Of a stretch of DNA of 44,560 nt, positions 622 through 30,113 are shown piece by piece. Under the pieces are notes generated by a model. The model searched no databases and had not been told where the DNA came from. It saw only the letters and a program-made list of their open reading frames with translations. The position numbers were made by a program, and so were the translations under genes. Numbering within the stretch: position 1 is the first letter of the stretch; each line of letters starts with the position of its first letter. This DNA comes from a virus. The stretch covers positions 1 to 44,560 of IMG/VR virus record IMGVR_UViG_3300026512_000698; one strand, 5' to 3'.

Positions 622-710
622 TTTTTAAAATTCTTTGGAAGTCCGTTGTTTACGAAGAATAATAGTGGTGGGTCCTATGTGACTCGAACACATGACCACT
701 CCGTTATGAG
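622..710 (-). repeat. Attachment site, left copy (tRNA-CAT 3' half)
   Basis: This 89-bp segment recurs at 7526-7614 with one central patch of mismatches (654-664 region) and one single mismatch. Positions 666-710, read on the minus strand, are the 3' half of a tRNA from the anticodon loop CTCATAA through the T arm to the terminal CCA. The matching 5' half (anticodon stem, D arm) is absent at both copies, as expected for att sites of elements that insert into the anticodon loop of a tRNA gene. The intact tRNA should lie further right, outside the window. Confidence 0.85.
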
Positions 711-817
711 GGGGTTTGTCGTTTATGTCTTAAAGTGTATAATACCCTATAATAGCACCTATTCAAGGGTTATATACTTTTTATAATGTTTTTAATGGTA
801 TAATAAATTCCATAAAA

Positions 818-838
818 GTGGTACCCTTGCTGGTACCC
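818..838 (+). promoter_or_regulatory. Candidate integrase arm-type sites, left of element 1
   Basis: Two 9-bp near-direct repeats, GTGGTACCC (818-826) and CTGGTACCC (830-838), with a 12-bp period, sit just before the first integrase gene. The same doublet with the same period occurs at the other end of the element (7479-7499). In the circular form the two doublets would flank the core site, as arm-type sites of tyrosine integrases do. They also overlap the integrase promoter zone and could autoregulate it. Confidence 0.6.
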
Positions 839-853
839 CAAAAGGGAATATGA

Positions 854-1909
854 ATGGCTATAAATCCTAAAGACTATCCTCACAAGATTATTACTGGACT
901 TACATCAAATAATAACTACGATAAATTCTTTTATAGGTTTTTACATAATCAAAAAAGATATAAAGGCATAATTGATTACAGAAATAAATCTTGGAATAAA
1001 AGAGATAGAGTTGATTATGCAAAAGAAGCTTTCTTAGAAGCAAAAAAAGAAGCTAAAAGCACAATTGATACAGATGCAACAGTTGATGATATTGTTAATC
1101 TGTATTTAGAAACGATGCCAGAGAGTAAATACAAGACAAATCGCAAATCTTACTATGACAGAAAAGTTAAGCCCATAATTGGAAAAAAGAAAGCAGAAGA
1201 TATTTTACCAATGCATTTGCAGAAAATTATTAACGATAACATTAAGGATGGAAATAGCCCAGCGACTGCAAAACAAGCAATCGAAGTATTATCCCCTGCT
1301 TTTAACATTGCAAGAGCAAATAGGATTGTAGCTCATAATCCATGCATAGATGTAAAAATCAAAATGCCAAAGACTAAAAAAATTGTAGTTAATGCAACTG
1401 AACGATTAACAAATATCTACAAAGCAATTATAAAGTTATACAAAGACAATCCATATTACAGAGCTTTTTTCTTATTGGCACTTCAAGGTAGAAGAAAAGG
1501 AGAGATATTAAATCTAAGATGGGAGCATATCTCATTTGAATATGATTATTACTTTTTAGCAGACACTAAAAATGATGAAGAACAAAAAGTATATTTACCA
1601 CCAAATGTAAAAGAAGCACTACAAGAATTTCAACAAAAAGAGGGATGGGTATTTGAGTCACCAATCAACAGAGGACAAAGATTATCAGATGCGAAGCGAC
1701 AGACAGCACAACTTAAAAAAGAACTAGGAGACTGGTTTACAATGCACTACACTAGAAATGTAATGGTTTCAGCTATGGCAGAACAGGGAGTAGATGCAAT
1801 TTACATGAGTGGAGCTTTAGGACATAATGACCCTAATACAATTACTAAATATTTAACTATGAACTACTTGCAAGGCTCCAAAATCGCAAGTGATATGATA
1901 CAGAGATGA
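854..1909 (+). CDS. int: Tyrosine integrase of element 1
   Basis: 351 residues, normal length for a phage integrase. It has an N-terminal arm-binding region (1-60), a SAM-like core-binding domain (about 75-170) and a catalytic domain. The catalytic set is visible: Arg214 in QGRRKGE, Lys239 in DTKN, His298 and Arg301 in HYTRN, His324 in LGHND and the nucleophile Tyr333 in TKYLTM. An AAAGGGA ribosome site precedes the ATG. It is closely related to the second integrase at 7765, which fits use of the same tRNA-derived core. It should catalyse insertion and, with an excisionase, excision of the 7 kb element. Confidence 0.95.
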   Translation: MAINPKDYPHKIITGLTSNNNYDKFFYRFLHNQKRYKGIIDYRNKSWNKRDRVDYAKEAFLEAKKEAKSTIDTDATVDDIVNLYLETMPESKYKTNRKSYYDRKVKPIIGKKKAEDILPMHLQKIINDNIKDGNSPATAKQAIEVLSPAFNIARANRIVAHNPCIDVKIKMPKTKKIVVNATERLTNIYKAIIKLYKDNPYYRAFFLLALQGRRKGEILNLRWEHISFEYDYYFLADTKNDEEQKVYLPPNVKEALQEFQQKEGWVFESPINRGQRLSDAKRQTAQLKKELGDWFTMHYTRNVMVSAMAEQGVDAIYMSGALGHNDPNTITKYLTMNYLQGSKIASDMIQR

Positions 1910-1913
1910 TACT

Positions 1914-2684
1914 ATGACATTTTTAGAAGCACTAGAAGATTATACAAGAAGAATACATCATGCACCACTAGAAGAATATCACGAAGAAATATTAACAACT
2001 TTTAAGCTCTTTGGAGAATACTTAAATAAAATACCTTCAGACGGGTTTGGAATCATAGAGGGTTTAGAAGAAGTAGTATTTAATTATTATATTAAAAAAA
2101 GAGATTACGAGGACTTCAACAGAGGCAATAGCTCAATGATGTTTGAGAGTCGAGATGGAAAAACAACTCAAGGAAAGCAAAGAGCAAATTCAGATATAAA
2201 TGTGTTAAAAAAAACAAGAAATTTATTACAACATGTTTCTCACAAAGATTATAGAATTATGCAAGGAGACCAGCAAAATAATAGACAAGAAGAGTTTATT
2301 CCTAAACCTCCTATGGAATGGCAAACAAAAAAGAACGGAACACAAAAATATAAGAAAATTGAAGATTATAGTTTTATAAACTATCAAGATAAAGAAATTG
2401 CATTAAAAGCCTACAATCAGACCATAGCACTTTATGACGAATCTAAAAAGTATCCTTTTGCTGGAGAGCATAGAGTAGAAAAAGATGTATTTAATACTTA
2501 TTGGTTTTTAACAGCATTAATAAATGATTTAGAAGATAAAAAATTTTATCTATTTGAGAAATCACATTACTATAAACCAGAAAAACCATCAAAGGCAGAA
2601 CTAAAAAAAACTTTAACATTTATTCGAAATGCCTTTAACATAAAAGGCTCCTTAGAAGAAAAAGAACTCACAGATAACTTATAA
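1914..2684 (+). CDS. Hypothetical protein downstream of integrase
   Basis: 256 residues, starting 4 nt after the integrase stop, so it is cotranscribed with it. It is charged and soluble with no signal or membrane segment. The N-terminal 60 residues look helical; the middle (about 110-170) is rich in Gln, Lys and Tyr. I do not recognise the family. The operon ends at a perfect 13-bp hairpin. Its place next to int suggests a role in maintenance or regulation of the element, but nothing in the sequence shows it. Confidence 0.75.
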   Translation: MTFLEALEDYTRRIHHAPLEEYHEEILTTFKLFGEYLNKIPSDGFGIIEGLEEVVFNYYIKKRDYEDFNRGNSSMMFESRDGKTTQGKQRANSDINVLKKTRNLLQHVSHKDYRIMQGDQQNNRQEEFIPKPPMEWQTKKNGTQKYKKIEDYSFINYQDKEIALKAYNQTIALYDESKKYPFAGEHRVEKDVFNTYWFLTALINDLEDKKFYLFEKSHYYKPEKPSKAELKKTLTFIRNAFNIKGSLEEKELTDNL

Positions 2685-2690
2685 TTACTA

Positions 2691-2722
2691 CCACTAAAAT
2701 AAAAAAATCTTTATTTTAGTGG
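2691..2722. terminator. Perfect 13-bp hairpin after the int operon
   Basis: Arms 2691-2703 and 2710-2722 are exact inverted repeats (CCACTAAAATAAA and its complement) around a 6-nt loop, 6 nt after the stop codon. The A/T-rich inner stem supplies runs of A and T, but no U-tract follows the stem, so termination efficiency is uncertain. It could work in both directions or be an operator. Confidence 0.45.
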
Positions 2723-2815
2723 ATAGACTATAAAACCCTCAAATAATATACTTCCAACATCTGACGAGATAAATCATAAAACATTGATTAGCTAATCATA
2801 ACAAAGGAACTTGTT

Positions 2816-3010
2816 ATGAACGACAATTTACAAAAGAGGTGGCTCACTCCAAAAGAGCTTTTAACAGAATTTGGATTTTCAATAGATAACCAAGCAAAAA
2901 TGAGAATGGATAAAAGAATACCATTTTCTAAAATTGGAAAGTATATTAGATATGACCGGGAAGAGTTAGACAAATGGTTAAAAGACCATGCAGTAGTAAA
3001 GGCGGCTTAA
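2816..3010 (+). CDS. AlpA/excisionase-type HTH regulator
   Basis: 64 residues. The pattern WLTPKELLTEFG, then KMRMDKRIPFSKIGKYIRYDREELDKWL is the winged helix-turn-helix of the AlpA/Xis (HTH_17) family: recognition helix, a wing and a final helix. Such proteins bend DNA for excision or switch on satellite and prophage genes. An AAAGGA ribosome site lies upstream. A clear homolog with the same layout is at 22366 in the large prophage, so the two elements share this control module. Confidence 0.8.
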   Translation: MNDNLQKRWLTPKELLTEFGFSIDNQAKMRMDKRIPFSKIGKYIRYDREELDKWLKDHAVVKAA

Positions 3011-3011
3011 G

Positions 3012-3275
3012 ATGGCAAAGAAAAAACCAACACATACAACCATCATATTACAAAAGTTTCTAAAAGGCGAAACTATTATTAGTTCAGATGTTTTTGCATC
3101 AAACACTAACCAGTATTTTCCACCTATTAAGGACCAAGGCATTGAGCTAATTGAGTGGAATGACCCAACAGAGGGTAGACACTTAAAGCGTAAACTCAAT
3201 ATGACTGATGAGAACATAGAGAGAGCAAAGAAATATCTCAAAAAACTTACTGGTGTATCAGATGAGCTGGACTAA
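3012..3275 (+). CDS. Small putative DNA-binding protein
   Basis: 87 residues, one base after the preceding stop and so cotranscribed. Residues about 12-60 fit a small winged-helix shape, and the C-terminus (TDENIERAKKYLKKL) is a charged helix. Lysine-rich start. No family recognised with confidence; the DNA-binding guess rests on composition and on neighbours. Confidence 0.6.
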   Translation: MAKKKPTHTTIILQKFLKGETIISSDVFASNTNQYFPPIKDQGIELIEWNDPTEGRHLKRKLNMTDENIERAKKYLKKLTGVSDELD

Positions 3276-3603
3276 AGAAGAACTTGAAAAACTACAAGAT
3301 AAAAACTCTTTTTTAATTCAAAAATCTATCTATGAAGATTTAAAACTTATGAGCGAAGCCGAAACACATTATCTTGTTATGAGAATGTTTGAGTATGTAT
3401 TAAATGGAGAAATCCCAGCTCTTGATGATAAGAAGCACAGGTTTGTTAAAAGTGCTTTTAATCGTTTTAAAATTGCATATGATAGCGACTCAGCAAAGTG
3501 GTTAAAAGCTTGTAAAAAGAAAAGCGAAAATAAAAAAGCAGACTGGCAAAAAAAGAAAACAGATAGACAAGGTAACCCAACTGAACACCCAATATACAAG
3601 TAG
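3262..3603 (+). CDS. DUF6291-like phage/satellite protein
   Basis: 113 residues from the ATG at 3262; a GTG at 3253 would add three residues. The body (NSFLIQKSIYEDLKLMSEAE, then MFEYVLNGEIP and FVKSAFNRFKIAYDSD) resembles the DUF6291 group of small proteins found near phage replication genes. The tail is very Lys-rich, which suggests nucleic-acid binding. It overlaps the end of the previous gene by 14 nt and ends just before the tandem 19-bp repeats, a position compatible with a replication role. Function is inferred only from context. Confidence 0.65.
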   Translation: MSWTKEELEKLQDKNSFLIQKSIYEDLKLMSEAETHYLVMRMFEYVLNGEIPALDDKKHRFVKSAFNRFKIAYDSDSAKWLKACKKKSENKKADWQKKKTDRQGNPTEHPIYK

Positions 3604-3609
3604 TTTTAT

Positions 3610-3666
3610 ACAACTGTATAGAACTCTTACAACTGTATACAGTTCTTACAAATGTTTAGAGTTGTT
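3610..3666. repeat. Three tandem 19-bp repeats (iteron-like)
   Basis: Units at 3610-3628, 3629-3647 and 3648-3666 each begin ACAA-TGT and end in CTT or GTT. Unit 2 contains the perfect 14-bp palindrome AACTGTATACAGTT. They lie in the 210-bp gap between two gene groups of the satellite. Such arrays are either replication-origin iterons or a set of operators for the downstream operon at 3814. Confidence 0.65.
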
Positions 3667-3813
3667 ACAGAGGGGATAGGAAGTGAACGGTAGTGAACTG
3701 AACTATCTTTATCTTATAGGAAAAGAGTTTTATTCTATGAATATAAATATAAACTTACAAACTGTTAATAAGTTTTAATAGAGAGTAAGTAAACACTTTA
3801 AAAAGGACAAAAA

Positions 3814-4281
3814 ATGAAAGATACAAACACAGAGAGCTTAACAGCTAATTTAAGAACTATAACAACACAAGACAAAAGACAAATAATAAACGCATTATGT
3901 TTTAATGAGGGTGGATATGAGCTAACTAACCCAAATACTTTATTAAATCACTTTGGAGTAAGTACAGATGATTTAATGGGAAATATTGAATCTATCCCAA
4001 GTTGGATATTTGGAGCAAATGGCTTTGAAGCAGATATGCAATTAAGAGTAAAAGAGAGTGCTATAAATATGTACTTAGAAAAATACCCACAGTTTGATTT
4101 ACAATTTAGCAAGTCTATACTTCAAGATATTTTAGAAATGGATTTAGAAGACTTAGGACGAGCCAAGAAAGAATATAAAGAGATGTATAAAACAAAAGAT
4201 GCTGGTTATAAATTTATTAAGATGATATTAAAGTATAAAGAAAATATTGAGAAATACGGAGTTGAAAGCGTACAGCAGTAA
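3814..4281 (+). CDS. Hypothetical protein, first gene of satellite operon
   Basis: 155 residues with an AAAAGGA ribosome site. It heads a chain of five genes (3814-5856) linked by 1- to 4-nt overlaps or short gaps. Mostly helical by composition (LGRAKKEYKEMYKTKD, YKENIEKYG), no membrane segment. Not recognised. It lies directly after the tandem 19-bp repeats, so replication or regulation is possible. Confidence 0.7.
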   Translation: MKDTNTESLTANLRTITTQDKRQIINALCFNEGGYELTNPNTLLNHFGVSTDDLMGNIESIPSWIFGANGFEADMQLRVKESAINMYLEKYPQFDLQFSKSILQDILEMDLEDLGRAKKEYKEMYKTKDAGYKFIKMILKYKENIEKYGVESVQQ

Positions 4282-4526
4282 TGACCAATAATGCAAGAGT
4301 GCGACCTTATATGGATACAAGGATAGTTATTTTACTAGAACGATTGAGAGATATACAAGGACTCTCAATCGGTAAGGTCCTAACAATACTCTTAAATGAT
4401 TCTAGCGTGTTTCAAAGTTTGTTAGAAAATTACTATGCAGAAGATGAAACACTAGAAAATATCTTTTTAGGACTATTATCAGAGATCGATAAATGCGACA
4501 ATACAACAAATAAAACAAAAGGATAA
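4281..4526 (+). CDS. Small protein, possible ribbon-helix-helix
   Basis: 81 residues; its ATG overlaps the preceding TAA (TAATG), so translation is coupled. The pattern VRPYMDTRIVILLERLRDIQGLSIGKVLTILL, with a strand followed by two helices, resembles ribbon-helix-helix DNA-binding proteins of plasmids and phages. The acidic C-terminus could mediate oligomerisation. The assignment is tentative. Confidence 0.6.
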   Translation: MTNNARVRPYMDTRIVILLERLRDIQGLSIGKVLTILLNDSSVFQSLLENYYAEDETLENIFLGLLSEIDKCDNTTNKTKG

Positions 4527-4532
4527 AAAGAG

Positions 4533-4853
4533 ATGAATAAGCACTTAATAATGATGGCACTCAAAGAGATACCACAAATAAGTAAAAATCTAAAAAATGG
4601 AAATAGTGATGCAAAATCAGAAATGCGATTAATCATTACTGCATTAAGAAATACACGCCCTCAACAGGGAATAGCAACAGCGACAGCAAGTGCATCATCC
4701 TTATTAAAAGCAGTAGAAGGAAAAAAAATAAGTGAAGATATGGCAAAGACAATTAAACAGACTGCATTATCAGAGTTAGCAAGTCAATTTCGTGATGAAG
4801 CTGATTTTAAAGATGAAAATAAAATAAAACTTTTAGAGGAGTTAATCAAATGA
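4533..4853 (+). CDS. Hypothetical helical protein, paralog of the next gene
   Basis: 106 residues with an AAAAGGA ribosome site. All-helical composition, Ala/Ser-rich centre (ATATASASSLLKAVEG). Both its start (ALKEIPQISKNLK) and its end (FKDENKIKLLEELIK) resemble those of the next gene (TLQKIPSMIKEFDK and DDTKVKILEKYLK). The two may descend from one gene and interact. No known family. Confidence 0.65.
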   Translation: MNKHLIMMALKEIPQISKNLKNGNSDAKSEMRLIITALRNTRPQQGIATATASASSLLKAVEGKKISEDMAKTIKQTALSELASQFRDEADFKDENKIKLLEELIK

Positions 4854-5281
4854 AACAGCACAGAGAAATAATCACGACACTTCAAAAGATACCAAGCATG
4901 ATAAAAGAGTTTGATAAGCTTGAGAAGTCAATTGCTAATACAGATACGAGAAAAAAGCAAATATCAAAAGAAAATTATCAACTAGAGATACTAAATTTTG
5001 AAGCTACCAACGCACCTGATAATGCTCTTATTAGAAAGATTACTGCAACAGGCAACCATCTTGAATTAAGTAAGCCTGACTTTAAACCAGCATATCATAG
5101 TTTAAATGAAGTTCAAAGAGTAATTAATGTAATTGGTTTAGATAAAGCACCTAGCAGAATAAAACAGCAACTTGAACTTATGGAACTCTTAGAAGTTAAA
5201 AGCTTGTTTCAAACAGCAACAGACTTTTTAGACGATACAAAAGTAAAAATACTTGAAAAATATTTAAAAGGAAAGAAATAA
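4850..5281 (+). CDS. Hypothetical helical protein
   Basis: 143 residues. Its ATGA overlaps the previous stop, and a GAGGAG ribosome site lies inside the previous gene, so it is coupled. It is helical and charged, with termini like those of the 106-residue neighbour. No membrane segment or known motif. Its TAATG end couples it to the next gene. Confidence 0.65.
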   Translation: MKQHREIITTLQKIPSMIKEFDKLEKSIANTDTRKKQISKENYQLEILNFEATNAPDNALIRKITATGNHLELSKPDFKPAYHSLNEVQRVINVIGLDKAPSRIKQQLELMELLEVKSLFQTATDFLDDTKVKILEKYLKGKK

Positions 5282-5856
5282 TGAATTACAGACAAGCAGG
5301 AATATACACAGATAGAAGCACAATAGAACTTAAAACAGAGTTTGAGGATATTATAGAAGCTATGGGAGAGATAGGACAAAACAAAGAGATTACTCATGCC
5401 CTACTTGATTTTTGGTTACATGGAAGTGTACCGACAAATAATGATATCTATTTACTACAGCTACATGTTCAAAAGCTATTAAAAGATAATGGAATACCAG
5501 CAGAACATATAAAAAACTCTTTAGGTGGAAATGCACCATTAGATAAATACACACTATTCAAGAACGCTTGTTTAAATTTTATTGGAGAAGATTTAACACC
5601 GGACTTTAAAACATTAGTTATTGAACCCCTGATTAAGCATTATGTTACGCCAAGTGAAGCAAGTAAAAAACATAAACTAAAGCAGTTAGAAGTAGCACGA
5701 AAGACTATCAAGGGGTTATCTCCTAGTATTGATAAGTCTATTGCAGAACTAAGCAAAATAGAGCCTTTCATATTGGCAGGAACTTTTGAAGAAACAATCT
5801 TGATAAAGTTGCAACAGATAGAACACTTAATAGTCAATCAAATAGCCACTTCTTAG
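5281..5856 (+). CDS. Hypothetical protein, last gene of satellite operon
   Basis: 191 residues, coupled by TAATG to the preceding gene. Helical, with a Lys-rich middle (ASKKHKLKQLEVARKTIKG) and a hydrophobic C-terminal third. Not recognised. A 6-bp hairpin spans its stop codon. As part of the satellite-specific block it is a candidate for helper interference or capsid remodelling, but only by position. Confidence 0.65.
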   Translation: MNYRQAGIYTDRSTIELKTEFEDIIEAMGEIGQNKEITHALLDFWLHGSVPTNNDIYLLQLHVQKLLKDNGIPAEHIKNSLGGNAPLDKYTLFKNACLNFIGEDLTPDFKTLVIEPLIKHYVTPSEASKKHKLKQLEVARKTIKGLSPSIDKSIAELSKIEPFILAGTFEETILIKLQQIEHLIVNQIATS

Positions 5857-5862
5857 GTGGCT
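5844..5862. terminator. Weak hairpin over the operon's stop codon
   Basis: AGCCAC (5844-5849) and GTGGCT (5857-5862) pair around a 7-nt loop that holds the stop codon. No strong U-tract follows, so it may only attenuate transcription between the unknown operon and the terminase gene. Confidence 0.35.
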
Positions 5863-6003
5863 TATCTAATAGGGAGGGCGGATTGAGAAACTGACAGATT
5901 TTTTCTTTTTGTTAATCGACCCCCAGTCACGAAAAAATAAGAACGATTTTTCAAAATATTTGAAACAGTAACATATTTAATCACATATAAGGAGATAATA
6001 CAA

Positions 6004-6606
6004 ATGCACACGCAAAAAGAAGCCTTGATAGTCTTGAATTGTAGCAAGATGACTCTATCAAGATATGTAAAAGATGGTAAATTAGAGCGAACAAAAAAAG
6101 GTCGCAAAACTTATTACGATGAACACGAAGTAGCAACACTTGTTAAGCAGATAGAGGACAATAAAAGTAAATATCGACCTGATGTTCCAAAGAGAGAAAA
6201 AAAGCGTATAGAGCTACCAAATGAAGTTAAAGAGTTATGCAAAAATATTTCAAGTACAGAAAATTTAAGCAAAGTAGGTTTTGAGTATCTTGCAGAAACA
6301 ACAGAGTATTTAAAAAAATCTAATTTGTATCAAGATGCAGATAAAGAAATTTTAGTGCAATATGCTTTAAGCGTTCAAAACTTTTATAAATATCTCTACT
6401 TATCAAATCAAAACGAATGTATCTTTAAAAGCGATACAGGAGCGATAACACTACATCCTTTTTTTAAAGTAATGCAACACCACGAAAAACAGATGCTTTG
6501 TTACATGGATAGGTTAGGACTTAATCCACTAGCAAGACAAAAACTCAACATAGAAGCAGAAAAAGAACTTACAGAGATGGGAAAATTCTTACTTGGTATT
6601 GAATAA
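6004..6606 (+). CDS. terS: Terminase small subunit, P27 family, with N-terminal HTH
   Basis: 200 residues with an AAGGAGA ribosome site. Residues 1-55 form a MerR-like helix-turn-helix (EALIVLNCSKMTLSRYVKDG, then Tyr-Tyr-Asp-Glu-His-Glu-Val wing). The C-terminal part carries the P27 TerS signature: HPFFKVMQHHEKQM followed by LGLNPLARQKLNI. TerS proteins recognise the packaging site and recruit the large subunit. No large subunit lies in this element, so the protein would work with a helper phage's TerL, as TerS of SaPI/PICI satellites does. Family call is fairly sure; the helper is unknown. Confidence 0.75.
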   Translation: MHTQKEALIVLNCSKMTLSRYVKDGKLERTKKGRKTYYDEHEVATLVKQIEDNKSKYRPDVPKREKKRIELPNEVKELCKNISSTENLSKVGFEYLAETTEYLKKSNLYQDADKEILVQYALSVQNFYKYLYLSNQNECIFKSDTGAITLHPFFKVMQHHEKQMLCYMDRLGLNPLARQKLNIEAEKELTEMGKFLLGIE

Positions 6607-6611
6607 ATTCT

Positions 6612-6878
6612 TTAACTATCTTCCATTATAGGCAAAGCAATTTTTGCAAAGTCTTGATGTGCTTTATCGCAAATATTATCTTTTAGTAAATTTCTTAGTT
6701 TTATTCCATTATTGCAACACACCCATAGTTTCAACCATGATTTAACCCAATAAGGAATCTCACGATTTTTAGTATTCCAATTATTTACAACTTCACTTGA
6801 TGTACCAAGTAATTCAGCAAATTTCTTTTTAGTTAGCCCAGCTTCTTTTAATAGCCCTTTAAATTCTTCATTATTCAA
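6612..6878 (-). CDS. XRE-type repressor of the satellite
   Basis: 88 residues on the minus strand, divergent from the gene at 7062. Residues 1-40 show the classic XRE helix-turn-helix: FKGLLKEAGLTKKKFAELLG, then SSEVVNNWNTKNREIP. The segment PYWVKSWLKLW is shared with the partial regulator at the right edge of the window. It probably represses the satellite from palindromic sites in the 6879-7061 intergenic region. Confidence 0.8.
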   Translation of the reverse strand: MNNEEFKGLLKEAGLTKKKFAELLGTSSEVVNNWNTKNREIPYWVKSWLKLWVCCNNGIKLRNLLKDNICDKAHQDFAKIALPIMEDS

Positions 6879-6902
6879 ATATTTTTCCTTAAAAGTAATT
6901 AT

Positions 6903-6938
6903 ATGATTATATCATAATAATATTAATAATCATATGAT
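6903..6938. promoter_or_regulatory. Operator-like palindromes between divergent satellite genes
   Basis: ATGAT-TAT-ATCAT (6903-6915) and ATCATATGAT (6929-6938) are palindromes sharing the half-site ATCAT/ATGAT; further ATGATTAT copies follow near 6974. They lie between the repressor (start 6878) and the gene at 7062, whose -10 candidate TAAAAT is near 7016. The likely ligand is the XRE protein at 6612. Confidence 0.5.
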
Positions 6939-7061
6939 GAGTCCTTTAAGTGATAATTAATAATTAAATGATTATACTTTTAAAAGTTAAACTAATTATT
7001 TGATTAGTTATTAGCTAAAATAAAGATATGCAATATAAGTTGCAGTCAAAAAGGATATAAA

Positions 7062-7457
7062 ATGAGATTATCAACAAGTGGAAGAATAGAGAAATATGAG
7101 AACTTATCGGAGCAAATAGATGCCGCTTTTTATGGAACTATGGACAGAGTACATGGCTTAGAAGTCGTATCTAAACTATTATCACATGTAGCACTACATG
7201 CTGAGTGCCAGGATGACGAAGAATTAAGCAGTAGTGACCTACACTCTTTGTCTGAGCTAATGAGACTTAATTTAAAGCAAGTGTATGTAAATGTTTCAGA
7301 AATACGTCAATCCTTGCAAGATAATGAAGAAGTAGAGAATATTTTGAAAGAATCAGAACAAAGTGAAATAATTGAAGAATATTCACGAAGATCACCAACA
7401 GCACAAGAAAGCAATAGAGATGATAAAAAGTTTTTTGATAGTTATTTTAAAGATTAA
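7062..7457 (+). CDS. Hypothetical acidic protein, divergent from repressor
   Basis: 131 residues with an AAAAAGGA ribosome site. Helical and acidic, ending in a low-complexity charged tail (SPTAQESNRDDKKFFDSYF). It stands alone between the repressor and the right attachment site. Not recognised. The position suggests an accessory or regulatory product expressed when the repressor is lifted, or a lysogeny gene. Confidence 0.65.
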   Translation: MRLSTSGRIEKYENLSEQIDAAFYGTMDRVHGLEVVSKLLSHVALHAECQDDEELSSSDLHSLSELMRLNLKQVYVNVSEIRQSLQDNEEVENILKESEQSEIIEEYSRRSPTAQESNRDDKKFFDSYFKD

Positions 7458-7478
7458 AAGTTAAGTATTTTTATAAAA

Positions 7479-7499
7479 GTGGTACCCCAAGTGGTACCC
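7479..7499 (+). promoter_or_regulatory. Candidate integrase arm-type sites, right end of element 1
   Basis: Two exact GTGGTACCC repeats at 7479-7487 and 7491-7499, period 12 bp, close to the right attachment repeat. They match the doublet before the first integrase, so element 1 carries the same sites at both ends. Confidence 0.6.
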
Positions 7500-7525
7500 T
7501 AATGAAAACTTAAACGATAAATTGA

Positions 7526-7614
7526 TTTTTAAAATTCTTTGGAAGTACGTTGTTTACGAAGTTTGTAAGTGGTGGGTCCTATGTGACTCGAACACATGAC
7601 CACTCCGTTATGAG
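7526..7614 (-). repeat. Attachment site shared by elements 1 and 2
   Basis: This is the second copy of the 89-bp repeat. Positions 7570-7614 on the minus strand are the tRNA 3' half from the CTCATAA loop to the CCA end. The bases beyond the loop differ from those at the first copy and cannot complete the anticodon stem. This copy is the right end of element 1 and the left end of element 2, which shows tandem insertion at one site. Confidence 0.85.
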
Positions 7615-7764: not shown

Positions 7765-8838
7765 ATGGCAATCAACACAAAAGATTACCCAAATAAAGTT
7801 GAAAACAATTTATGGTCGAACAAGAACTATACTATATTTTTCTATACATTTACATTTGAAAAGAAAAAATATAGAGGCTTAATAGACTTAGCAGATAAAA
7901 TCAAGTGGAATAAAAAAGATAAAATCTTCACAGCTCGTGCTGAACTTATGAAGATTAAAAATGATAAAAAAGAAAATATACTTAATGATGGTATTACTCT
8001 TGATAAGTACATGGATAGTTTCTTTGACTTGCGACCAGATACAAACACCACTAAAAAACTAAAGAGTCATTACAAAAGATATATTAGTGATATATGTGGA
8101 ATGAAAAAACTTGTAGATATTCGTCAGCTTCATATAAAAAGGAGTATTAAGTATCAAGAAGATGTAGGTTTAGCAGCTCGTACTATAAAACAAACTTTAG
8201 AGGTCTTATCTCCAGCATTTAAAAGTGCTATTGCAAATCGTGTTATATCTTTTAATCCTCTTGATGGAATATCTATAAAGCTTCCAAAAACTAAGAAAAT
8301 AGTAAGTGAAGCATCTAAAGAGTTAATAAAAATTCATAAAGCCATATATGAAGAGTTTGCTACTGATCCTTTTTATTTAGCATTCTTCTTATTTGCTTTG
8401 CAAGGTAGAAGAAAGAGTGAGATATTTACTCTCAAGTGGGAAGATGTGAGTATTGACAATTCTTACTACATACTTAGAAACACTAAAAATAATGAAGAGC
8501 AAAAAATATTCTTGTCTGATATAATGAAAAAACAACTTAGCCAAATACCAAAAGTTAGCGAGTGGGTTTTTACATCAAGAAGAACAGGCTCTCATATAGT
8601 AGATGTTAGAAAAAGGGTTGGTAAGTTAAAAACTAGATTAAAAGATGATAGCTTTGGTATACACTACTTAAGAAATGTTATTGTTTCTGCTATGGCGGAG
8701 CAAGGCTTAGAGTCTATGCACTTAAGTGGAGCATTAGGACACAATGACCCAAATACCATAAAAAAATATCTTACTATGAACTATTTAAAATCTAGTGAAA
8801 TTGCTAGTGGGGTTATTGATACTATTGTTGGTAAATAG
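7765..8838 (+). CDS. int: Tyrosine integrase of element 2
   Basis: 357 residues, homologous to the integrase at 854 along its whole length. Catalytic residues are seen in QGRRKSE (Arg), NTKNNEE (Lys), HYLRNV (His, Arg), LGHNDPN (His) and KKYLTM (Tyr). An AGGGA ribosome site is present. It lies directly inside the shared attachment site, pointing into the element. It should insert the large prophage at the same tRNA core used by the satellite. Confidence 0.95.
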   Translation: MAINTKDYPNKVENNLWSNKNYTIFFYTFTFEKKKYRGLIDLADKIKWNKKDKIFTARAELMKIKNDKKENILNDGITLDKYMDSFFDLRPDTNTTKKLKSHYKRYISDICGMKKLVDIRQLHIKRSIKYQEDVGLAARTIKQTLEVLSPAFKSAIANRVISFNPLDGISIKLPKTKKIVSEASKELIKIHKAIYEEFATDPFYLAFFLFALQGRRKSEIFTLKWEDVSIDNSYYILRNTKNNEEQKIFLSDIMKKQLSQIPKVSEWVFTSRRTGSHIVDVRKRVGKLKTRLKDDSFGIHYLRNVIVSAMAEQGLESMHLSGALGHNDPNTIKKYLTMNYLKSSEIASGVIDTIVGK

Positions 8839-8877
8839 ATTTTTTACTATACTTGTATTTCCATATCACTATGGTAT

Positions 8878-8950
8878 GCGGTTGTAGCTCAGCGGATAGA
8901 GCACGAATTTCATAAATTCGAGGTCGAGGGTTCAAATCCCTCCAGCATTT
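8878..8950 (+). tRNA. tRNA-like gene, anticodon CAT, imperfect acceptor stem
   Basis: A cloverleaf can be drawn: D stem GCTC/GAGC (8887-8902), anticodon stem CGAAT/ATTCG with loop TTCATAA (8904-8920), variable AGGTC, T stem GAGGG/CCCTC with loop TTCAAAT (8926-8942). Acceptor strands 8878-8884 and 8943-8949 pair at four inner positions, but the outer three are two mismatches and one G-T. No CCA is encoded. CAT could be Met or lysidine-modified Ile. It is either a phage tRNA with a decayed end or a tRNA whose 3' end was replaced. Confidence 0.7.
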
Positions 8951-11986: not shown

Positions 11987-13610
11987 TTTCTATCTCCTTT
12001 GCTATAAATTTTTTCAACTCAAAAATAATCCCTCTAAGCTTTCTTATCTCAAAAGATTTTTTGTCATAATTTCCATCACTATGGATCACTTCATGTAGTT
12101 CTTTAGTGTGATGTCTTACTTGCATTATTTTTACTTCTTTTTGCAGTTCTTGAAAAGTATAGATAGTAAGCCCATCCATAAGTAACAATCCTTGCAGTTT
12201 GCTATCTTGATTTATGAGCATTGAAAACTCTTCTTTATGAACATCAAACATTTCAACTTTTAAACCTTGTGTAGCTACATGTAGACGCTCATCATCTTCA
12301 TTCGCACTTTTAATTATGTTCATCTCTGAAACATTTATAGTTTGAGTAGATATGTGTTTCTCTACATGTAGAGCTTGAGTCTGTTGTACCAGTATGTGAT
12401 TTTGATTTATGCTTAATGTTTGAGCAACAAAAGGTTTATACTCATCTTGAAGAAGTGGTGCTAATGTTTTTAAAAACTCTTGTATATCTCTAAGTGCCTC
12501 TTGCTTTTGTTGAGGAATACTTAGGTTAAAACTAGAGGCAATCGTTTCAATTACATATTTGATAAGTGGAGTACTTTTCTTCATAATATCAAAGAGTTCT
12601 TTTGTGTTTCCATCTTTTACCATATCTGCTGGGTCTTTTCCCTTGGGAAAAATTACAACACCACCATATACTTCATGTGAGCATAAAAGTTTACTAGCTT
12701 TTAGTGCTGCACTCTTTCCAGCTTTATCTCCATCAAAACAAAGTAAAGCTTGTGCTTTAGCTTTTTTAATAGTGTTACAGTGAAGTTCAGTAAGAGCAGT
12801 TCCCATAGTTGCTACTGCTGTTTTTATTCCAGCTTGATGGAACATGATTACATCTAAGTAACCCTCAGTTATAACAAAAGTTCCTTTTTTGTAGATATAC
12901 TCTTTAGCTATGTTATACCCATATAAGTTACGAGACTTATCAAACAGTGGAGTTTGAGGGGAGTTTATATATTTAGCACCATCGCCTTTAGTTATGCGAC
13001 CACCGAAACCTATTAGTTTACCTGTATGATTACGAATAGGGAAACTAATACGATTGCTCAACCTTGCATAAGTATTGCTCTTGCCATCTACTGCAACTAC
13101 TCCACACTCCATTGCATCACTAATATTAAACATTTGTCGGTTTATGTAAGCAATTTGCTCTTTTGAACTTTTTGTAAAACCTACTTCAAAAGTTTTTATA
13201 CTATCATTTGTCAAACCTCTATCTATAAGATACTCATGCGTTTCTTGGTCAAGGTTTGATAAATAATAGCTATTGATATTTTCCATAAATGTTTTATAGT
13301 CTTTTTTATTACTATTTTCTTCATACTCTAGTGAAAAATTTAGGTCATTCGCAATATCTTCAACTGCTTCTATAAAACTAAGTTTTTTGTACTCTTGAAC
13401 AAAACCAATAGCATCAGAACCCATTCCGCAACCAAAACAATGATAGATTTGTTTTGCTGGACTCACAACTAAAGATGCTGTTTTTTCTCCATGAAAAGGA
13501 CAACATGCTTTATAATTTGCTCCAGCTTTTTTAAGTTCTAATGAGTTCTCTAAAATATCAACTATATCTATCTGGGCTTTTAGAGCTTCTAGTGATGTTG
13601 ATTTAATCAT
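11976..13610 (-). CDS. dnaG: DNA primase, DnaG type
   Basis: 544 residues, near bacterial DnaG length. The N-terminal CHC2 zinc finger is seen as CCPFHGEK (36-43) and HCFGCG (57-62). The RNA polymerase-like core contains the RFG-type segment RISFPIRNHTGKLIGFGGR. The TOPRIM domain has VITEGYLDV with the catalytic Glu and CFDGDKAGK with the metal-binding Asp pair. It makes RNA primers for lagging-strand synthesis. The element also encodes a DnaB-like helicase (22556), so it carries much of its own primosome. The C-terminal helicase-binding part is short and divergent. Confidence 0.93.
   Translation of the reverse strand: MIKSTSLEALKAQIDIVDILENSLELKKAGANYKACCPFHGEKTASLVVSPAKQIYHCFGCGMGSDAIGFVQEYKKLSFIEAVEDIANDLNFSLEYEENSNKKDYKTFMENINSYYLSNLDQETHEYLIDRGLTNDSIKTFEVGFTKSSKEQIAYINRQMFNISDAMECGVVAVDGKSNTYARLSNRISFPIRNHTGKLIGFGGRITKGDGAKYINSPQTPLFDKSRNLYGYNIAKEYIYKKGTFVITEGYLDVIMFHQAGIKTAVATMGTALTELHCNTIKKAKAQALLCFDGDKAGKSAALKASKLLCSHEVYGGVVIFPKGKDPADMVKDGNTKELFDIMKKSTPLIKYVIETIASSFNLSIPQQKQEALRDIQEFLKTLAPLLQDEYKPFVAQTLSINQNHILVQQTQALHVEKHISTQTINVSEMNIIKSANEDDERLHVATQGLKVEMFDVHKEEFSMLINQDSKLQGLLLMDGLTIYTFQELQKEVKIMQVRHHTKELHEVIHSDGNYDKKSFEIRKLRGIIFELKKFIAKEIESES
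12636..12651. promoter_or_regulatory. parS-like palindrome 1
   Basis: TTTTCCC-TT-GGGAAAA is a perfect 7-bp-arm palindrome inside the primase gene. The same palindrome occurs at 16945-16958 and 39679-39694. It resembles ParB centromere sites in length and symmetry. Confidence 0.45.
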
Positions 13611-23983: not shown

Positions 23984-24847
23984 ATGAAAATTAAAAAGAT
24001 AAATGCACATACAGTTAAACTAGATGGACAAGAGTTATCACTAAATGATAGTGAGAAAATAGTTAAAAAAGCTGGTACTGACTACTATATCCATAAAAAT
24101 AAAAAACAAGATGAGTTTATTATTTCAGAAAATAAAAAACTTAAAATGTATAAACTAGTTGGTGGTTTTCACTATGGTCTTATTCCTGAAGAGTTTACAA
24201 CTATAAACAATATTAGCAAAAAATCCTCTAAAAAAATAGCTGGTATAAATCACTACTCTATCTGGAGTAAAAAACATAGACCACTATGTGAACCAGAAGG
24301 GATGGTATTTATTCCTAAACTAAAGATTTGGATAGATATATATCTGCTAAATGCAGACCATAAAGTAAATGGCTCATCAAAAGCTAATGCGATTATAGCT
24401 AGTGGAGATAATTACAATGGTAGAAAAATACCAGTAGATGAAGAAGACTTAAAAGGTAATGTTGTAGATGCCATTGCTTCACATCATAATAAAAGACTAC
24501 TGACTCAAAAAGAGTTTAGAAAAGCTATGTATGGTGTAAAAGAAGGTTTGAGTGCTGAGGACTTAGATGATGGAACAACTAAACATATAAAAGACTTTGT
24601 ATCAAGATACGGGATAGAACAAGCAACTGGTGTTCAATGGATATGGAGTAAAGATTTATATAATTCTAGTGATAAGTTAAGGGTGCTTTTGGGTGGCGCT
24701 CGTGGCAGTGGCGTGCACGCAGGTTCTCGTGCCTCGGATTGGAGCTACTATGTTTGGAACTCGTACTGGGACATTGGTGTGCGTCTGTCATGTGACATGA
24801 AACTTAAAAATGAAGCGAAAGCGAATTTAAAGACAAAGGATAAATAA
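23984..24847 (+). CDS. DGR variable protein 1 (C-type-lectin-like domain)
   Basis: 287 residues, homologous through most of its length to the last 300 residues of the fibre at 27556 (shared AGTDYY, GGFHYGL, YGIEQATGVQWIW). The variable segment (about residues 233-270: LLGGARGSGVHAGSRASDW ... WDIGVRLSCD) is the end of a CLec/formylglycine-enzyme-like fold used by DGR target proteins. It has no fibre stalk. It lies between helicase and SSB-like genes, about 5 kb from the retroelement, and joins the next gene by TAATG. Likely a displayed binding protein; the partner is unknown. Confidence 0.85.
   Translation: MKIKKINAHTVKLDGQELSLNDSEKIVKKAGTDYYIHKNKKQDEFIISENKKLKMYKLVGGFHYGLIPEEFTTINNISKKSSKKIAGINHYSIWSKKHRPLCEPEGMVFIPKLKIWIDIYLLNADHKVNGSSKANAIIASGDNYNGRKIPVDEEDLKGNVVDAIASHHNKRLLTQKEFRKAMYGVKEGLSAEDLDDGTTKHIKDFVSRYGIEQATGVQWIWSKDLYNSSDKLRVLLGGARGSGVHAGSRASDWSYYVWNSYWDIGVRLSCDMKLKNEAKANLKTKDK
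24682..24794 (+). repeat. DGR variable repeat 1 (VR1)
   Basis: 113 bp aligned without gaps to the template repeat (29834-29946). Ten differences are at template adenines (A to T, G or C). One, near the 3' end (TCG to TCA), is not. Eight of the nine template Asn codons have changed (to Ala, Ser, His, Asp, Ser, Tyr, Tyr, Asp). Confidence 0.95.
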
Positions 24848-25417: not shown

Positions 25418-26971
25418 ATGAATGAAATACAAAAAGCTTTAGCTGCTAAAAAAGCAGAACCTATACGACATGCTTTATGTCGTAAGGATTTACTTCATTA
25501 TGGTCGTTATATATTTGAAAAAGAATATGAAACTCCACTTCTTGAAGCATGGTATCACGAGCTACTATGTAATGCATTGATGAAAGTAGCTCACGGAGAA
25601 GTCACTAGACTTATTATAAACATACCACCAGCCTATGGAAAAACAGAGTTTGCAGTAAGACTTTTTGTGTCTTGGTATCTTGGTAATTTTCCAAAAAAAA
25701 GAGTTATTTATACATCATATAGTGATGACTTAGCTACTAAAACACCTGCCGAAGTTAAAGAACTTATCGTATCTCCATCTTATAAAAAAGTATTTAATAA
25801 TATTAGTCTAGGTAGAAAAACAGCAGATAAAGAGTGGTATTTAGAGTCTAAGGGTGGTATGTTTTCTACTACTGTTGGTGGAGGTATTACAGGTTTTCAC
25901 GGGAATATAGTGATAATAGATGATCCAATGAAAGCGATAGAGAAAAACTCTAAAGCTACAAGAGACTTAGTTACTAATTTTTATAAAGGTTCTATTACTT
26001 CAAGACTTAGAAAAGATGACCCTAACTCTGCCATAATAGTTATTATGCAAAGGCTACATGAAGATGACTTAGTTGGGTATCTACTTGAAGAGGAGCAAGA
26101 TATATGGACTCATATAAATCTAACAGGGATAAACCCTAAAGAAACTATATATGATTTTTTTGATTATTACTACAAGCGTGAAGCGTATGAGCCTTTGAAC
26201 CCTCACTTTGAAACAGTGCAAAAGCTGGAACAACAAAAAAAAGTAATGAAAGAAGATTGGTATTCTCAATATATGCAAGACCCTAGAACTATTGAGACTG
26301 GGTATGTAAGTGATAGTGATTTTGTTAGTATAGCTTCGTGGGAACTTAGTGAGGATAATAAATGTATCAGCATTGACCCTGCTCAATCAACAAAACAAAC
26401 AAGTGATAATAGAGCCATATCTTTAGTTGGAGTAGCACTTTCCCCCGAGAAAATAGAGCTATTTAATGTTTACGGAACATGGTTTGGAAAATGGGGTAAT
26501 GAAGAATTTATAGAACAAATCATACAAGTAATGATTGAAAATAGTGGTGTACCTGTATTTATGGAAAGCAGTGGTGGTGGTATTATTACAGAACAATATC
26601 TCAAAAAAGAGATACAAAAAGTAAATTACAAACTTAAAACTGAGGGTAAATCTATCCTTACCAATAGAGTTACCTTATTTAATCCAAAAACAAAAATAAG
26701 TAAAAATCAAAAAATTGACCAAAGTATTACATGTCTGCAAAATCATCAAATTCGCTTTGTTGTTGGGGGTCATGGTCAAGAACAAGTAAAAAAAGAGTAT
26801 CTAGGGTTTCATCCAGAAAAAGATTCTAAAGAAGATGACTGTATGGAAACTATTGCTAATGTAGTTGTAAATAATTTTGTATCTCCAAAAACTAAACCCA
26901 AAGATAAAACTATCAACAATCCAAGCGTTATGAGAAATTTTACTCAAAGAAGAATTGGTTGGAGAATTTAA
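25418..26971 (+). CDS. terL: Terminase large subunit
   Basis: 517 residues. ATPase domain: Walker A NIPPAYGKTEF (about 68-78), Walker B IVIIDDPMK (about 164-172), coupling motif after SAIIVIMQRLHEDDL. The RNase H-like nuclease domain starts at ISIDPAQST with Asp near 320. It cuts and pumps DNA into the prohead. No adjacent small subunit is recognised; the expected slot upstream holds SSB-like and DGR target genes. The 31-bp late-promoter element begins at its stop codon. Confidence 0.93.
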   Translation: MNEIQKALAAKKAEPIRHALCRKDLLHYGRYIFEKEYETPLLEAWYHELLCNALMKVAHGEVTRLIINIPPAYGKTEFAVRLFVSWYLGNFPKKRVIYTSYSDDLATKTPAEVKELIVSPSYKKVFNNISLGRKTADKEWYLESKGGMFSTTVGGGITGFHGNIVIIDDPMKAIEKNSKATRDLVTNFYKGSITSRLRKDDPNSAIIVIMQRLHEDDLVGYLLEEEQDIWTHINLTGINPKETIYDFFDYYYKREAYEPLNPHFETVQKLEQQKKVMKEDWYSQYMQDPRTIETGYVSDSDFVSIASWELSEDNKCISIDPAQSTKQTSDNRAISLVGVALSPEKIELFNVYGTWFGKWGNEEFIEQIIQVMIENSGVPVFMESSGGGIITEQYLKKEIQKVNYKLKTEGKSILTNRVTLFNPKTKISKNQKIDQSITCLQNHQIRFVVGGHGQEQVKKEYLGFHPEKDSKEDDCMETIANVVVNNFVSPKTKPKDKTINNPSVMRNFTQRRIGWRI

Positions 26972-27555: not shown

Positions 27556-29454
27556 ATGGGTTTTATACAAAATATGAATGAGCTTTATCTATCTTTAGAT
27601 AAATTACTTTTGCTTCACGATAGTCTTGGAACTATTTCTTTAACTGATAAACAACTTGCAGATATAGCAAATATTCAGAACAATATAGATGTAGTCACTT
27701 CGGTAAATGATAATAATGCAGATATAACTGTTGTTGCTCAAAATCTTGCTGATATTATAAATGCTAGTAAAATAATAAACATGACTGTCTCTACTGGTGC
27801 TACTGGAACTTCAGTTTCATGGGATGCAAATACTTCTGTTTTGACTGTTCCTATTGGCGCTACTGGTGCAACTGGAAATAGTGGTCAAGATGGCAACGAT
27901 GGTATAAATGGCTTAGATGTAGACCATGTTTCTAAAACAGACGGAACAGGAGAAAGTGGTACTACTGACACATACACTTTATGGCAAGACTCAGATGAAA
28001 CTGTATCACTTGGGACTTTTGAAGTTTACAATGGTGCTGATGGTGACGGTGCTGGTGACATGTCGAAAGACACATACGATACTAGTGATAGTGGAGTAGT
28101 TGATAACTCTGAAAAAGTAAATGGACTTACTGTAGAAACTGCTGTGCCAGAAAATGCAGTTTTTACAGATACAGTTACTTCTCTAGTTGATGCTCTTGAC
28201 TCAAGTTCAACATCAGAAGCATTAACTGCCAATCAAGGATTAGTTCTAAAAGGATTGATCGATAACCTAAATAGTTTAATAGCAAGTGATGATACAACTC
28301 TTGATGATTTACAAGAGATAGTTGATTTTATAAAAATAAATAAAGATACTTTAGATTCTTTAGCAATTGCTAGTATATCTGGTTTATCTGATGCCCTTGA
28401 TGCCAAGATGGATGCAGATGCAGTATCATCATCTGTTGATTTTAAAAAACCTAATACTAATGTTCTTTTTACAAAAACAAACCCAGCTGATTTCACTATA
28501 GCAGTAGGTTTTAAAGTTACAGTTGGAACTACTGCCGTAGAGATAACAGAAGAACAAACACTAAGTTTAGATGACAATCTTGATACAGGGACAAAAGAGG
28601 CTGGTACTGACTACTATGTTTATGCAAAAGCAGATAGTACATTTTATATTAGTGCTGATAAAACTATAACAGCTGATAGACTTATTGGTGGTTTTCATTA
28701 TGGTTTAACCGCTGAAGATGAAGCAAAAACTGGAAATAAAACAGATAATGATATGGTCGCTATTCGTGGTATTAACAAATATTCATTTTGGGATTTGAAG
28801 TTTAAGGCTATTGCTGGAAATGATGGAATGGCATTAGTTGGCACTAAGTGGTATGACATATATTTAACAAATAGTGAGCATATCACAAAGGGTACTTCAA
28901 AAGCTGGATTACTTATATCTGGTGGTACTACAGATAACGGTCGTGGAGTTCCAAAAATACCATTAGCTTATGGTGGTGATGGAGATGTTGATTATGGAAA
29001 GCTGACTTGGTTTCAAGTTTGTGAGATTGCTAAATCACACGGTAAAGAACTTATAGACTATGCAGAATTTCCAACTATTGCCTATGGTGTTGATGAGGGC
29101 AAATCATCTGATACTGATGACTATGAAACAACTGCTGGAAAAATTGAACACTACTCTCATCTTACTTCAAAATTTGGTATTGAGCAAGCTACTGGGGTTC
29201 AGTGGATTTGGGGTAAAGATGTTGGCGGTAACAGAGATGAAGATAGTACATCATGGGGATGGAGAGACAAAGCAGATTCAAGAGGTCAAATATATGCACT
29301 TCATGATAATCACATTACGGCGGTGCTGTTGGGTGGCCATCGTGGCAATGGCGTGCACGCAGGTTCTCGTGCCTCGGTTTGGAACTACTATGTTTGGAAC
29401 TCGAACTGGCTCATTGGTGTGCGTCTGTCGTGTGCCCACATGGAACTTGTGTAG
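27556..29454 (+). CDS. DGR variable protein 2: collagen-containing fibre
   Basis: 632 residues. Order: helical N-terminal segment for virion attachment (1-80), collagen-like G-x-y stretch (GATGATGNSGQDGNDGING, about 101-119), a Ser/Thr/Asp-rich shaft with a helical segment (about 205-285), then from about 345 the domain shared with variable protein 1, ending in the variable CLec segment (587-626). The architecture is that of a receptor-binding fibre whose tip is diversified. The avd gene follows in the same transcript. Confidence 0.9.
   Translation: MGFIQNMNELYLSLDKLLLLHDSLGTISLTDKQLADIANIQNNIDVVTSVNDNNADITVVAQNLADIINASKIINMTVSTGATGTSVSWDANTSVLTVPIGATGATGNSGQDGNDGINGLDVDHVSKTDGTGESGTTDTYTLWQDSDETVSLGTFEVYNGADGDGAGDMSKDTYDTSDSGVVDNSEKVNGLTVETAVPENAVFTDTVTSLVDALDSSSTSEALTANQGLVLKGLIDNLNSLIASDDTTLDDLQEIVDFIKINKDTLDSLAIASISGLSDALDAKMDADAVSSSVDFKKPNTNVLFTKTNPADFTIAVGFKVTVGTTAVEITEEQTLSLDDNLDTGTKEAGTDYYVYAKADSTFYISADKTITADRLIGGFHYGLTAEDEAKTGNKTDNDMVAIRGINKYSFWDLKFKAIAGNDGMALVGTKWYDIYLTNSEHITKGTSKAGLLISGGTTDNGRGVPKIPLAYGGDGDVDYGKLTWFQVCEIAKSHGKELIDYAEFPTIAYGVDEGKSSDTDDYETTAGKIEHYSHLTSKFGIEQATGVQWIWGKDVGGNRDEDSTSWGWRDKADSRGQIYALHDNHITAVLLGGHRGNGVHAGSRASVWNYYVWNSNWLIGVRLSCAHMELV
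29314..29434 (+). repeat. DGR variable repeat 2 (VR2)
   Basis: 121 bp aligned without gaps to the template 29826-29946. Nine differences, all at template adenines, including two silent third positions. Five of nine template Asn codons have changed (to His, His, Val, Tyr, Leu). The 3' end (GTGCGTCTGTCGTGTG) is identical to the template. Confidence 0.96.
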
Positions 29455-29472: not shown

Positions 29473-29808
29473 ATGAATGATTCTAAGAATTTGATTATTA
29501 TTGAAAAGTATGAAAGCTTTTTAAATTACATCTACCCTCATTTACAACATATACCGAGGAAACATGGAATTTTAAAAGAAAGAATTATTTTAATAGTTTT
29601 TGAACAAACAGAATTATTTTACAAAGCTATAAAATCTAACCAAAAAAGTAAACTATATGAAGCAGATGCAAATTTAGCAAGTATTAGATACTACCTTAGA
29701 TTTTTAGCTGATGAAAAAAGAAAACTTATAAGTCAAAAGCAACACAATACTGCTGGTGTAAAACTAGCAGAAGTTGGTAAGATTTTAAATAGTTGGATAA
29801 AAAAATGA
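29473..29808 (+). CDS. avd: Avd, DGR accessory variability determinant
   Basis: 111 residues, all helical, with the sequence character of Avd four-helix bundles: IIEKYESFLNYIYPHL, IPRKHGILKERIILIVFEQT, a basic helix and RYYLRFLADEKRKLI, ending GVKLAEVGKILNSWI. Avd forms a positively charged pentameric barrel that binds the reverse transcriptase and template RNA. It sits between VR2 and the template repeat, the standard place. Confidence 0.88.
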   Translation: MNDSKNLIIIEKYESFLNYIYPHLQHIPRKHGILKERIILIVFEQTELFYKAIKSNQKSKLYEADANLASIRYYLRFLADEKRKLISQKQHNTAGVKLAEVGKILNSWIKK

Positions 29809-29825
29809 GTTTATGGGCGAGTAAG

Positions 29826-29946
29826 ATTACAGCGGTGCTATTGGGTGGCAATCGTGGCAATGGCGTGAACGCAGGTTCTCGTGCCTCGAATTGGAACAAC
29901 TATGTTTGGAACTCGAACTGGAACATTGGTGTGCGTCTGTCGTGTG
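29826..29946 (+). repeat. DGR template repeat (TR)
   Basis: This 121-bp segment is the adenine-rich donor for VR1 and VR2. It has nine AAC or AAT codons in the reading frame of the target proteins, set where the binding surface varies. It lies 17 nt after avd and about 170 nt before the likely start of the reverse transcriptase. Its 3' flank (after GTGTG) differs from the flanks of both variable repeats, which marks it as donor rather than acceptor. Confidence 0.96.
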
Positions 29947-30113
29947 AGTATAAGATATGGATATTGCTCTCATATATAGTTACGGCTTATATGGAGCGAC
30001 CTTATAAAATATGGTCAGCTTACTTGTCCAGCGAAAGCAAATACATTGAGAGGTCTGTAAAAGTTGGAGTAGCTTTAATAGTGAAAGAACAAGACAGCAT
30101 TAAAAGGTATATA

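Follow-up and report, generated by a model that had tools for sequence, protein, structure and literature searches.

The 44,560-base virus record analysed here (IMGVR_UViG_3300026512_000698), hereafter the window, carries at positions 622–7614 a bounded 6.9-kb phage satellite, an assignment strongly supported by comparison with related loci. The element is probably a satellite of Campylobacterota that encodes its own small terminase subunit (TerS) and is packaged by HK97-type siphophages using cohesive-end (cos) sites. Its helper would be a siphophage with an HK97-like cluster of HNH, TerS, large terminase (TerL), portal, protease and capsid genes, rather than the prophage that adjoins the element, the same good probability covering the explanation as a whole. 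From left to right, the element consists of an integrase gene, g2, an AlpA-type gene, g4, g5, a 210-nucleotide (nt) gap, the block g6–g10, a 147-nt gap, the TerS gene, an opposed repressor-like gene and g13 (Table 1).

The element is delimited by direct repeats at 622–710 and 7526–7614, which are 93% identical over 89 bp (E = 2e-34) in a comparison within the record and 88% identical over 105 bp according to a repeat finder, and its length is 6,904 bp. In each repeat, the rightmost ~45 bp match the 3′ portion of a minus-strand tRNA whose anticodon is CAT; neither copy retains the 5′ portion, and ARAGORN calls no tRNA in the window. In two relatives, L130 and L131, the same 105-bp stretch (92%) ends an intact, uninterrupted tRNA-Met gene, and judged by their sequence these loci are empty sites. 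A third locus, L129, shows the left-flank gene, a tRNA piece, a ~7.2-kb insert with a distant integrase and then an intact tRNA-Met; the tRNA-Met locus is thus used repeatedly. The window runs from host flank through the element and the shared repeat into a second prophage, the right end of which lies beyond the record. Two doubled words, at 815–840 and 7476–7501, are candidate arm sites, the former for the integrase or AlpA.

Relatives were sought in two genome sets, the family (228 genomes) and the phylum (397 genomes) around L004, a Sulfurimonas assembly; the family is presumably Sulfurimonadaceae. When 11 element proteins were searched as one joined query, at least 72 of the 228 family genomes matched, mostly via the AlpA and repressor stretches, a lower bound with at most two candidates scored per genome. 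A TerS profile matched seven family genomes, with strong matches (E below 1e-100) in three, and a g10 profile matched four, the same three again being strong. Across the phylum, the g10 profile matched 3 of 397 genomes, one strongly (2.7e-35), and a two-row TerS profile gave 20 weak matches, the best at 1.3e-8. The strong relatives, L080, L081 and L082, keep g7, (g8), g9, g10 and TerS at 50–70% identity, L082 beginning inside g9. L080 lies between tRNA-Arg(CCT) and an exact 15-bp repeat (6,765 bp), and L081 between tRNA-Ser(GGA) and an exact 20-bp repeat (6,786 bp). Their integrases are distant from that of the window, the L080 protein being 25% identical over 231 residues and that of L081 unmatched by tblastn, which indicates that the same block has been paired with several integration systems. 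Since L080 and L081 keep the block and TerS in other tRNA genes, between exact repeats, the element is not an isolated prophage remnant. Purifying selection is seen in each of the 28 gene pairs tested (pN/pS 0.14–0.59). Elements of 4.8 and 6.0 kb with an integrase, AlpA and 26–27-bp repeats were also seen at tRNA-Phe in Sulfurospirillum-type genomes (L016:9847–14772 and L018:9849–15982).

Five viral contigs (L003 and L115–L118) encode a TerS 45–55% identical to that of the window, located between an upstream HNH gene and downstream TerL, portal and capsid genes. The TerL assignment is confirmed by Pfam in L003, L115, L117 and L118, and that of the capsid in L003 and L115; the other assignments come from lists of open reading frames (ORFs) and blastp comparison with L087, a locus described below. 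The phage proteins resemble the window TerS over the full length, including the N-terminal part, which contains HTH_17 in the window protein. In a tree of ten TerS sequences, the four satellite proteins form one group beside those of the phages (support 93/95), with values as low in 4 of 500 label shuffles. A TerS search of named phages found nothing, and the TerS profile identified 0 relatives among 70 pattern matches in genome contigs.

The 147-nt gap between g10 and TerS aligns between satellites and phages, and we regard positions 5869–5991 as a putative cos or TerS-binding site. A profile built from the five phages alone finds the site in L082 (3.7e-9) and L081 (1.9e-7); in its control, the best of 20 shuffles reached 8.4 bits. 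With these two satellites added to the profile, the best match in the window is 5875–5986 (2.3e-4) and the best in L080 is 12015–12109 (1.9e-4). With L080 added as well, the window site is recovered at 5874–5991 with an E-value of 1.7e-11, in a leave-one-out design from which the window was excluded. A four-satellite profile that includes the window matches all five phages at the corresponding place (1.2e-11 to 0.004). L082 holds a second copy far from TerS, and a further element without a TerS match, L107, also holds one; these copies apart from TerS favour a packaging site over a terS promoter. No hairpin is supported within the site (z −0.54), and no significant match to the site profiles was obtained within the prophage portion of the window. 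In a Sulfurimonas prophage of another type, the mapped cos ends lie at the start of TerS, according to PMC11290706.

The block upstream of this site (3814–5856) comprises five ORFs (155, 81, 106, 143 and 191 aa) that overlap by 1–4 nt or are spaced by 6 nt. None of g6–g10 reaches a Pfam cut-off, their best PHROGs E-value is 0.022, and their profiles attain at best a probability of 5% against 134 phage protein families. The predicted structures of g9 and g10 have no viral-fold match at E 0.001, g10 likewise has none in the PDB, and searches of viral contigs and of plasmids with g10 gave nothing. Hidden virion genes in the block were rejected, with no Pfam, PHROGs, fold or profile match. By their place before TerS and their inheritance with it, and by nothing more, g7–g10 suggest themselves as a module of this lineage for manipulating the helper, most likely by redirecting packaging or capsid assembly. 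The block may predate the satellite lineage.

In the mechanism that we propose, the integrase would keep the element in the 3′ end of tRNA-Met while the opposed repressor holds it silent. Upon helper action, AlpA would drive excision at the 89-bp repeats, and the circle would replicate from 3604–3813 using g5 or enzymes of the host or helper. The satellite TerS would bind its own copy of the helper-type site and recruit the helper large terminase, and the satellite DNA would thereby enter helper heads; TerS and the site are identified by comparison, from which we infer their action. Meanwhile, g7–g10 would manipulate the helper in the way suggested above.

Several observations weigh against this explanation. 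The phage-only profile misses the window site and gives the L080 site at noise level only, and the site could instead regulate terS. Pfam finds no primase or any replication family in the 13 of 13 ORFs searched. Among the looser relatives, L083, L089 and L090 are without a repeat of at least 11 bp despite a nearby tRNA, BLAST found no repeat for L086 and L088, and no tRNA was found in L084, L085, L087, L092, L020 and L091, which are hence unbounded. Furthermore, g7, g9 and g10 also occur in L107 (7584–19570), which spans 11,987 bp at tRNA-Met, is bounded by a 50-bp repeat and has tail-type genes between g7 and g9. The three tail-type genes, including a tape measure (Pfam), resemble the tail genes of L117 and L118; with its cos-like site and no TerL or capsid match, L107 is either a satellite that acquired tail genes or a remnant. 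The same three block genes lie between replication-type and capsid-type genes in L108. Given these two contexts, the link between block and packaging may be secondary.

The phage-like TerS and the adjoining prophage would also suit a siphophage prophage that has been reduced to its integrase, regulators and TerS. This is very unlikely: the same gene set recurs at near-equal size in L080 and L081, every ORF is open and under purifying selection, and no g6–g10 protein turned up in the retrieved sections of the TerS-matched phages L003 and L115–L118. In addition, the integrase faces inward and AlpA is present, as described for phage-inducible chromosomal islands (PICIs) and unlike prophages in PMC10111431. 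Alternatively, the element could be a satellite of the tandem prophage, or of any phage, with the site before TerS regulating terS and not serving as cos. Shared att sites, integrases that are 46% identical and the tandem arrangement speak for it, but we consider it unlikely, as the prophage part has no significant site-profile match and its TerL belongs to another family (phrog_38), and the copies in L107 and L082 argue against a regulatory site. The tandem prophage was also rejected as the TerS-matched helper.

There are two further readings. A capsid-forming satellite that has lost its head genes would be consistent with L020 and L087, which have head genes behind the same front end; we judge it quite unlikely, because four members are united by a TerS clade and by a block missing from these capsid-forming relatives, and the TerS-like ORF of L087 is only distantly similar (phrog_83, 4.5e-5). 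A genomic island in which a former TerS now serves as a DNA-binding regulator and plays no part in packaging would fit the N-terminal HTH_17 but is scarcely credible, given that the phage TerS are similar over their full length, the helix–turn–helix (HTH) part included, and stand before TerL.

Table 1 Features of the window, with the evidence for each
Position	Strand	Feature	Evidence
87–602	−	Host flank gene, 171 aa, outside the element	No Pfam match; homologues in relatives, in L129 at the same tRNA-Met locus
622–710	.	Left direct repeat (att), 3′ part of tRNA-Met and downstream DNA	93% to 7526–7614; intact copies in L130, L131
815–840	+	Doubled GTGGTACC-type word before the integrase gene	Repeat family D5, paired with 7476–7501
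854–1909	+	Tyrosine integrase, inward-facing	PF00589 2.5e-15; 46% to adjoining prophage integrase
1914–2684	+	g2, 256 aa, variable gene between int and alpA	No family match; outside the shared families of 19 loci
2816–3010	+	AlpA-type regulator/excisionase	HTH_17 1e-6; phrog_66 3.5e-7
3012–3275	+	g4, 87 aa, conserved front-end protein	Family at 12/19 compared loci
3262–3603	+	g5, DUF6291	PF19808 2.4e-14; 81% in L020, 67% in L085
3604–3813	.	Conserved non-coding stretch with repeats, candidate origin	Aligns with L020, L085 behind the same gene
3814–4281	+	g6, 155 aa	Homologues in L083, L084, weaker in L092
4281–4526	+	g7, 81 aa, ribbon-helix-helix-like by eye	Homologues in L080, L081, L107, L108
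4533–4853	+	g8, 106 aa, related to g9	70% in L080; g9 profile finds L080 g8 at 1.5e-4
4850–5281	+	g9, 143 aa, predicted all-helical (predicted local distance difference test, pLDDT, 90.2)	Homologues in L080, L081, L082, L107, L108
5281–5856	+	g10, 191 aa, predicted all-helical (pLDDT 86.8)	Homologues in L080, L081, L082, L107, L108
5869–5991	+	Conserved site upstream of TerS, also present in the TerS-matched siphophages, putative cos/TerS-binding site	Alignment; leave-one-out profile
6004–6606	+	Small terminase subunit (TerS)	PF05119 Terminase_4 1.1e-11; phrog_83 3.7e-13
6612–6878	−	Repressor-like protein	HTH_3 0.022 (below Pfam cut-off); family at 7/19 loci
7062–7457	+	g13, 131 aa	No family above Pfam cut-off
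7476–7501	+	Second doubled GTGGTACCC word	Repeat family D5, candidate arm site
7526–7614	.	Right direct repeat, common to satellite and adjoining prophage	Within-record match; L130/L131 comparison
7615–44560	.	Full-size second prophage in tandem, outside the satellite	Integrase 7765–8838, TerL 25418–26971, capsid 36444–37601, portal 39202–41073

The repeats and family matches in Table 1 confirm the bounded element, integrase, AlpA-like regulator and TerS that an initial annotation had read from the DNA, and its coupled block resembling no recognisable family has likewise held up. That annotation also saw no virion genes, in agreement with Pfam (13 of 13 ORFs) and PHROGs (10 of 13), which reveal no virion protein in the element and no complete virion set, capsid, portal or TerL of its own. 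The divergent repressor it proposed is present as an opposed gene with a family among the compared loci, although its HTH assignment is weak. The non-coding stretch behind g5 is a candidate replication origin by position and conservation; in L080 and L081, a ~223-aa gene is likewise trailed by its own conserved non-coding stretch, also a candidate origin. A comparison of 10 proteins (7 of the element) with PADLOC for defence cargo gave three matches (0.0007 to 0.006), which we read as chance.

The front end of the element is shared more widely than its back end. Clustering by blastp of 19 loci, hand-picked from the matches so that the counts are not frequencies, joins the integrases of 14 loci, g4 of 12, the repressor of 7 and, also at 7, the ~223-aa protein in the replication place. 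By eye this protein has the look of a rolling-circle initiator; its library match is phrog_1085 (function not assigned, 2.7e-4). Behind this front end, L089 has a TerS of the Terminase_2 family (2.5e-26) and L091 a TerS-like protein (phrog_309, 2.1e-8). In L089 and L090, AlpA is followed by Rha and KilA-N proteins, in keeping with the order of zones that PMC10111431 sets out for Gram-negative PICIs. L087 (1–8166) carries a connector, head-completion protein, capsid, HNH, the TerS-like ORF, TerL and portal, and L020 (1–6023) shares int-AlpA-g4-g5 at 71–81%, followed by head genes including the capsid. Both are candidate capsid-forming satellites rather than prophages, on contigs that show no ends. 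We tentatively propose, with somewhat less than even confidence, that Campylobacterota have their own satellite lineage, in which an int-AlpA-g4 front end swaps back ends (Terminase_4/cos with g7–g10, a pac-type TerS or a capsid-forming module). PICI-like and capsid-forming PICI (cf-PICI)-like strategies would then be exchanged, and g7–g10 would be a new all-helical helper-hijack module tied to HK97-type cos phages. A Campylobacterota lineage with matching phages, a mapped candidate for the cos site and packaging back ends that can be exchanged would open two questions to testing, namely by what route satellites switch helper and what minimal gene set suffices to hijack packaging, and the block supplies four to five proteins for assay.

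In the PICIs of Firmicutes of the Staphylococcus aureus pathogenicity island (SaPI) type, the satellite's own TerS is preceded by small genes that redirect capsid formation or packaging. The window element similarly has its own TerS behind small genes, but this TerS is a Terminase_4 protein behind a cos-like site, and no sequence link between g6–g10 and the SaPI redirecting genes turned up, no specific test having been made. As opposed to cf-PICIs, with which L020 and L087 have head genes in common, the window element carries neither head genes nor a TerL or portal gene. With Gram-negative PICIs it shares the inward integrase and AlpA, the helper-type packaging gene, the tRNA site and, following PMC10111431, the order of regulatory, replication and late zones. 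Their primase is described there as conserved and essential, whereas none was found here and DUF6291, or the ~223-aa protein in sister elements, occupies its place; the size of 6.8–6.9 kb (versus an average of 9.5 kb in PMC10803314), the own g7–g10 block and the phylum differ as well. Phage-inducible chromosomal minimalist islands (PICMIs) of Vibrionaceae are similar in having ~6 kb, an integrase, AlpA and very few genes, but possess a primase, lie beside fis and have no TerS among their listed genes, as opposed to the tRNA gene, TerS and block seen here. By analogy, the PICMI-style packaging of concatemers in full-size particles (PMC10803314) could apply to the window element. Of the P4-like core of alpha, ash, alpA, Sid, Delta, Psu and integrase (PMC12424806), only the integrase and the AlpA-type gene are present; the remaining genes have no match in Pfam (13 of 13 ORFs) or PHROGs (10 of 13).

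Because a primase was sought and not found, we describe the element as PICI-like in logic and do not file it as a PICI. The PICI-style logic in Campylobacterota-type DNA first suggested for it is upheld on two counts: Campylobacterota genomes contain related elements with defined ends, and there are phages that have the same TerS together with a similar upstream site. Even so, it is no textbook PICI. The order g7–(g8)–g9–g10–TerS does occur elsewhere, in L080 and L081 (for L082, from within g9), and not only as the decayed end of full prophages, these two being bounded at other tRNA genes. Capsid genes do occur in relatives that share the front end, L020 and L087, which answers in part to the refuting case that the annotation named, the missing contig ends making their boundaries not comparable. 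Most of the satellites that have been characterised in depth belong to Firmicutes, Gammaproteobacteria and a few marine groups, according to PMC10803314, and judged from titles and abstract openings, no published Campylobacterota satellite was found in the open-access literature.

The tandem prophage has features of its own. It holds a diversity-generating retroelement (coordinates 24682–24795, 29314–29434, 29826–29946 and 29793–31130) with a reverse transcriptase (phrog_1423), a template repeat and a pair of variable repeats, at 93% and 90%, whose differences, by eye, fall nearly all at template adenines; one variable repeat lies inside an Mtd-like gene. Directly after the prophage integrase, positions 8876–8950 resemble a tRNA, CAT anticodon loop included, and are not called by ARAGORN. 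At its right end (44440–44560), the record stops within a minus-strand gene, the end of which resembles the satellite repressor by eye.

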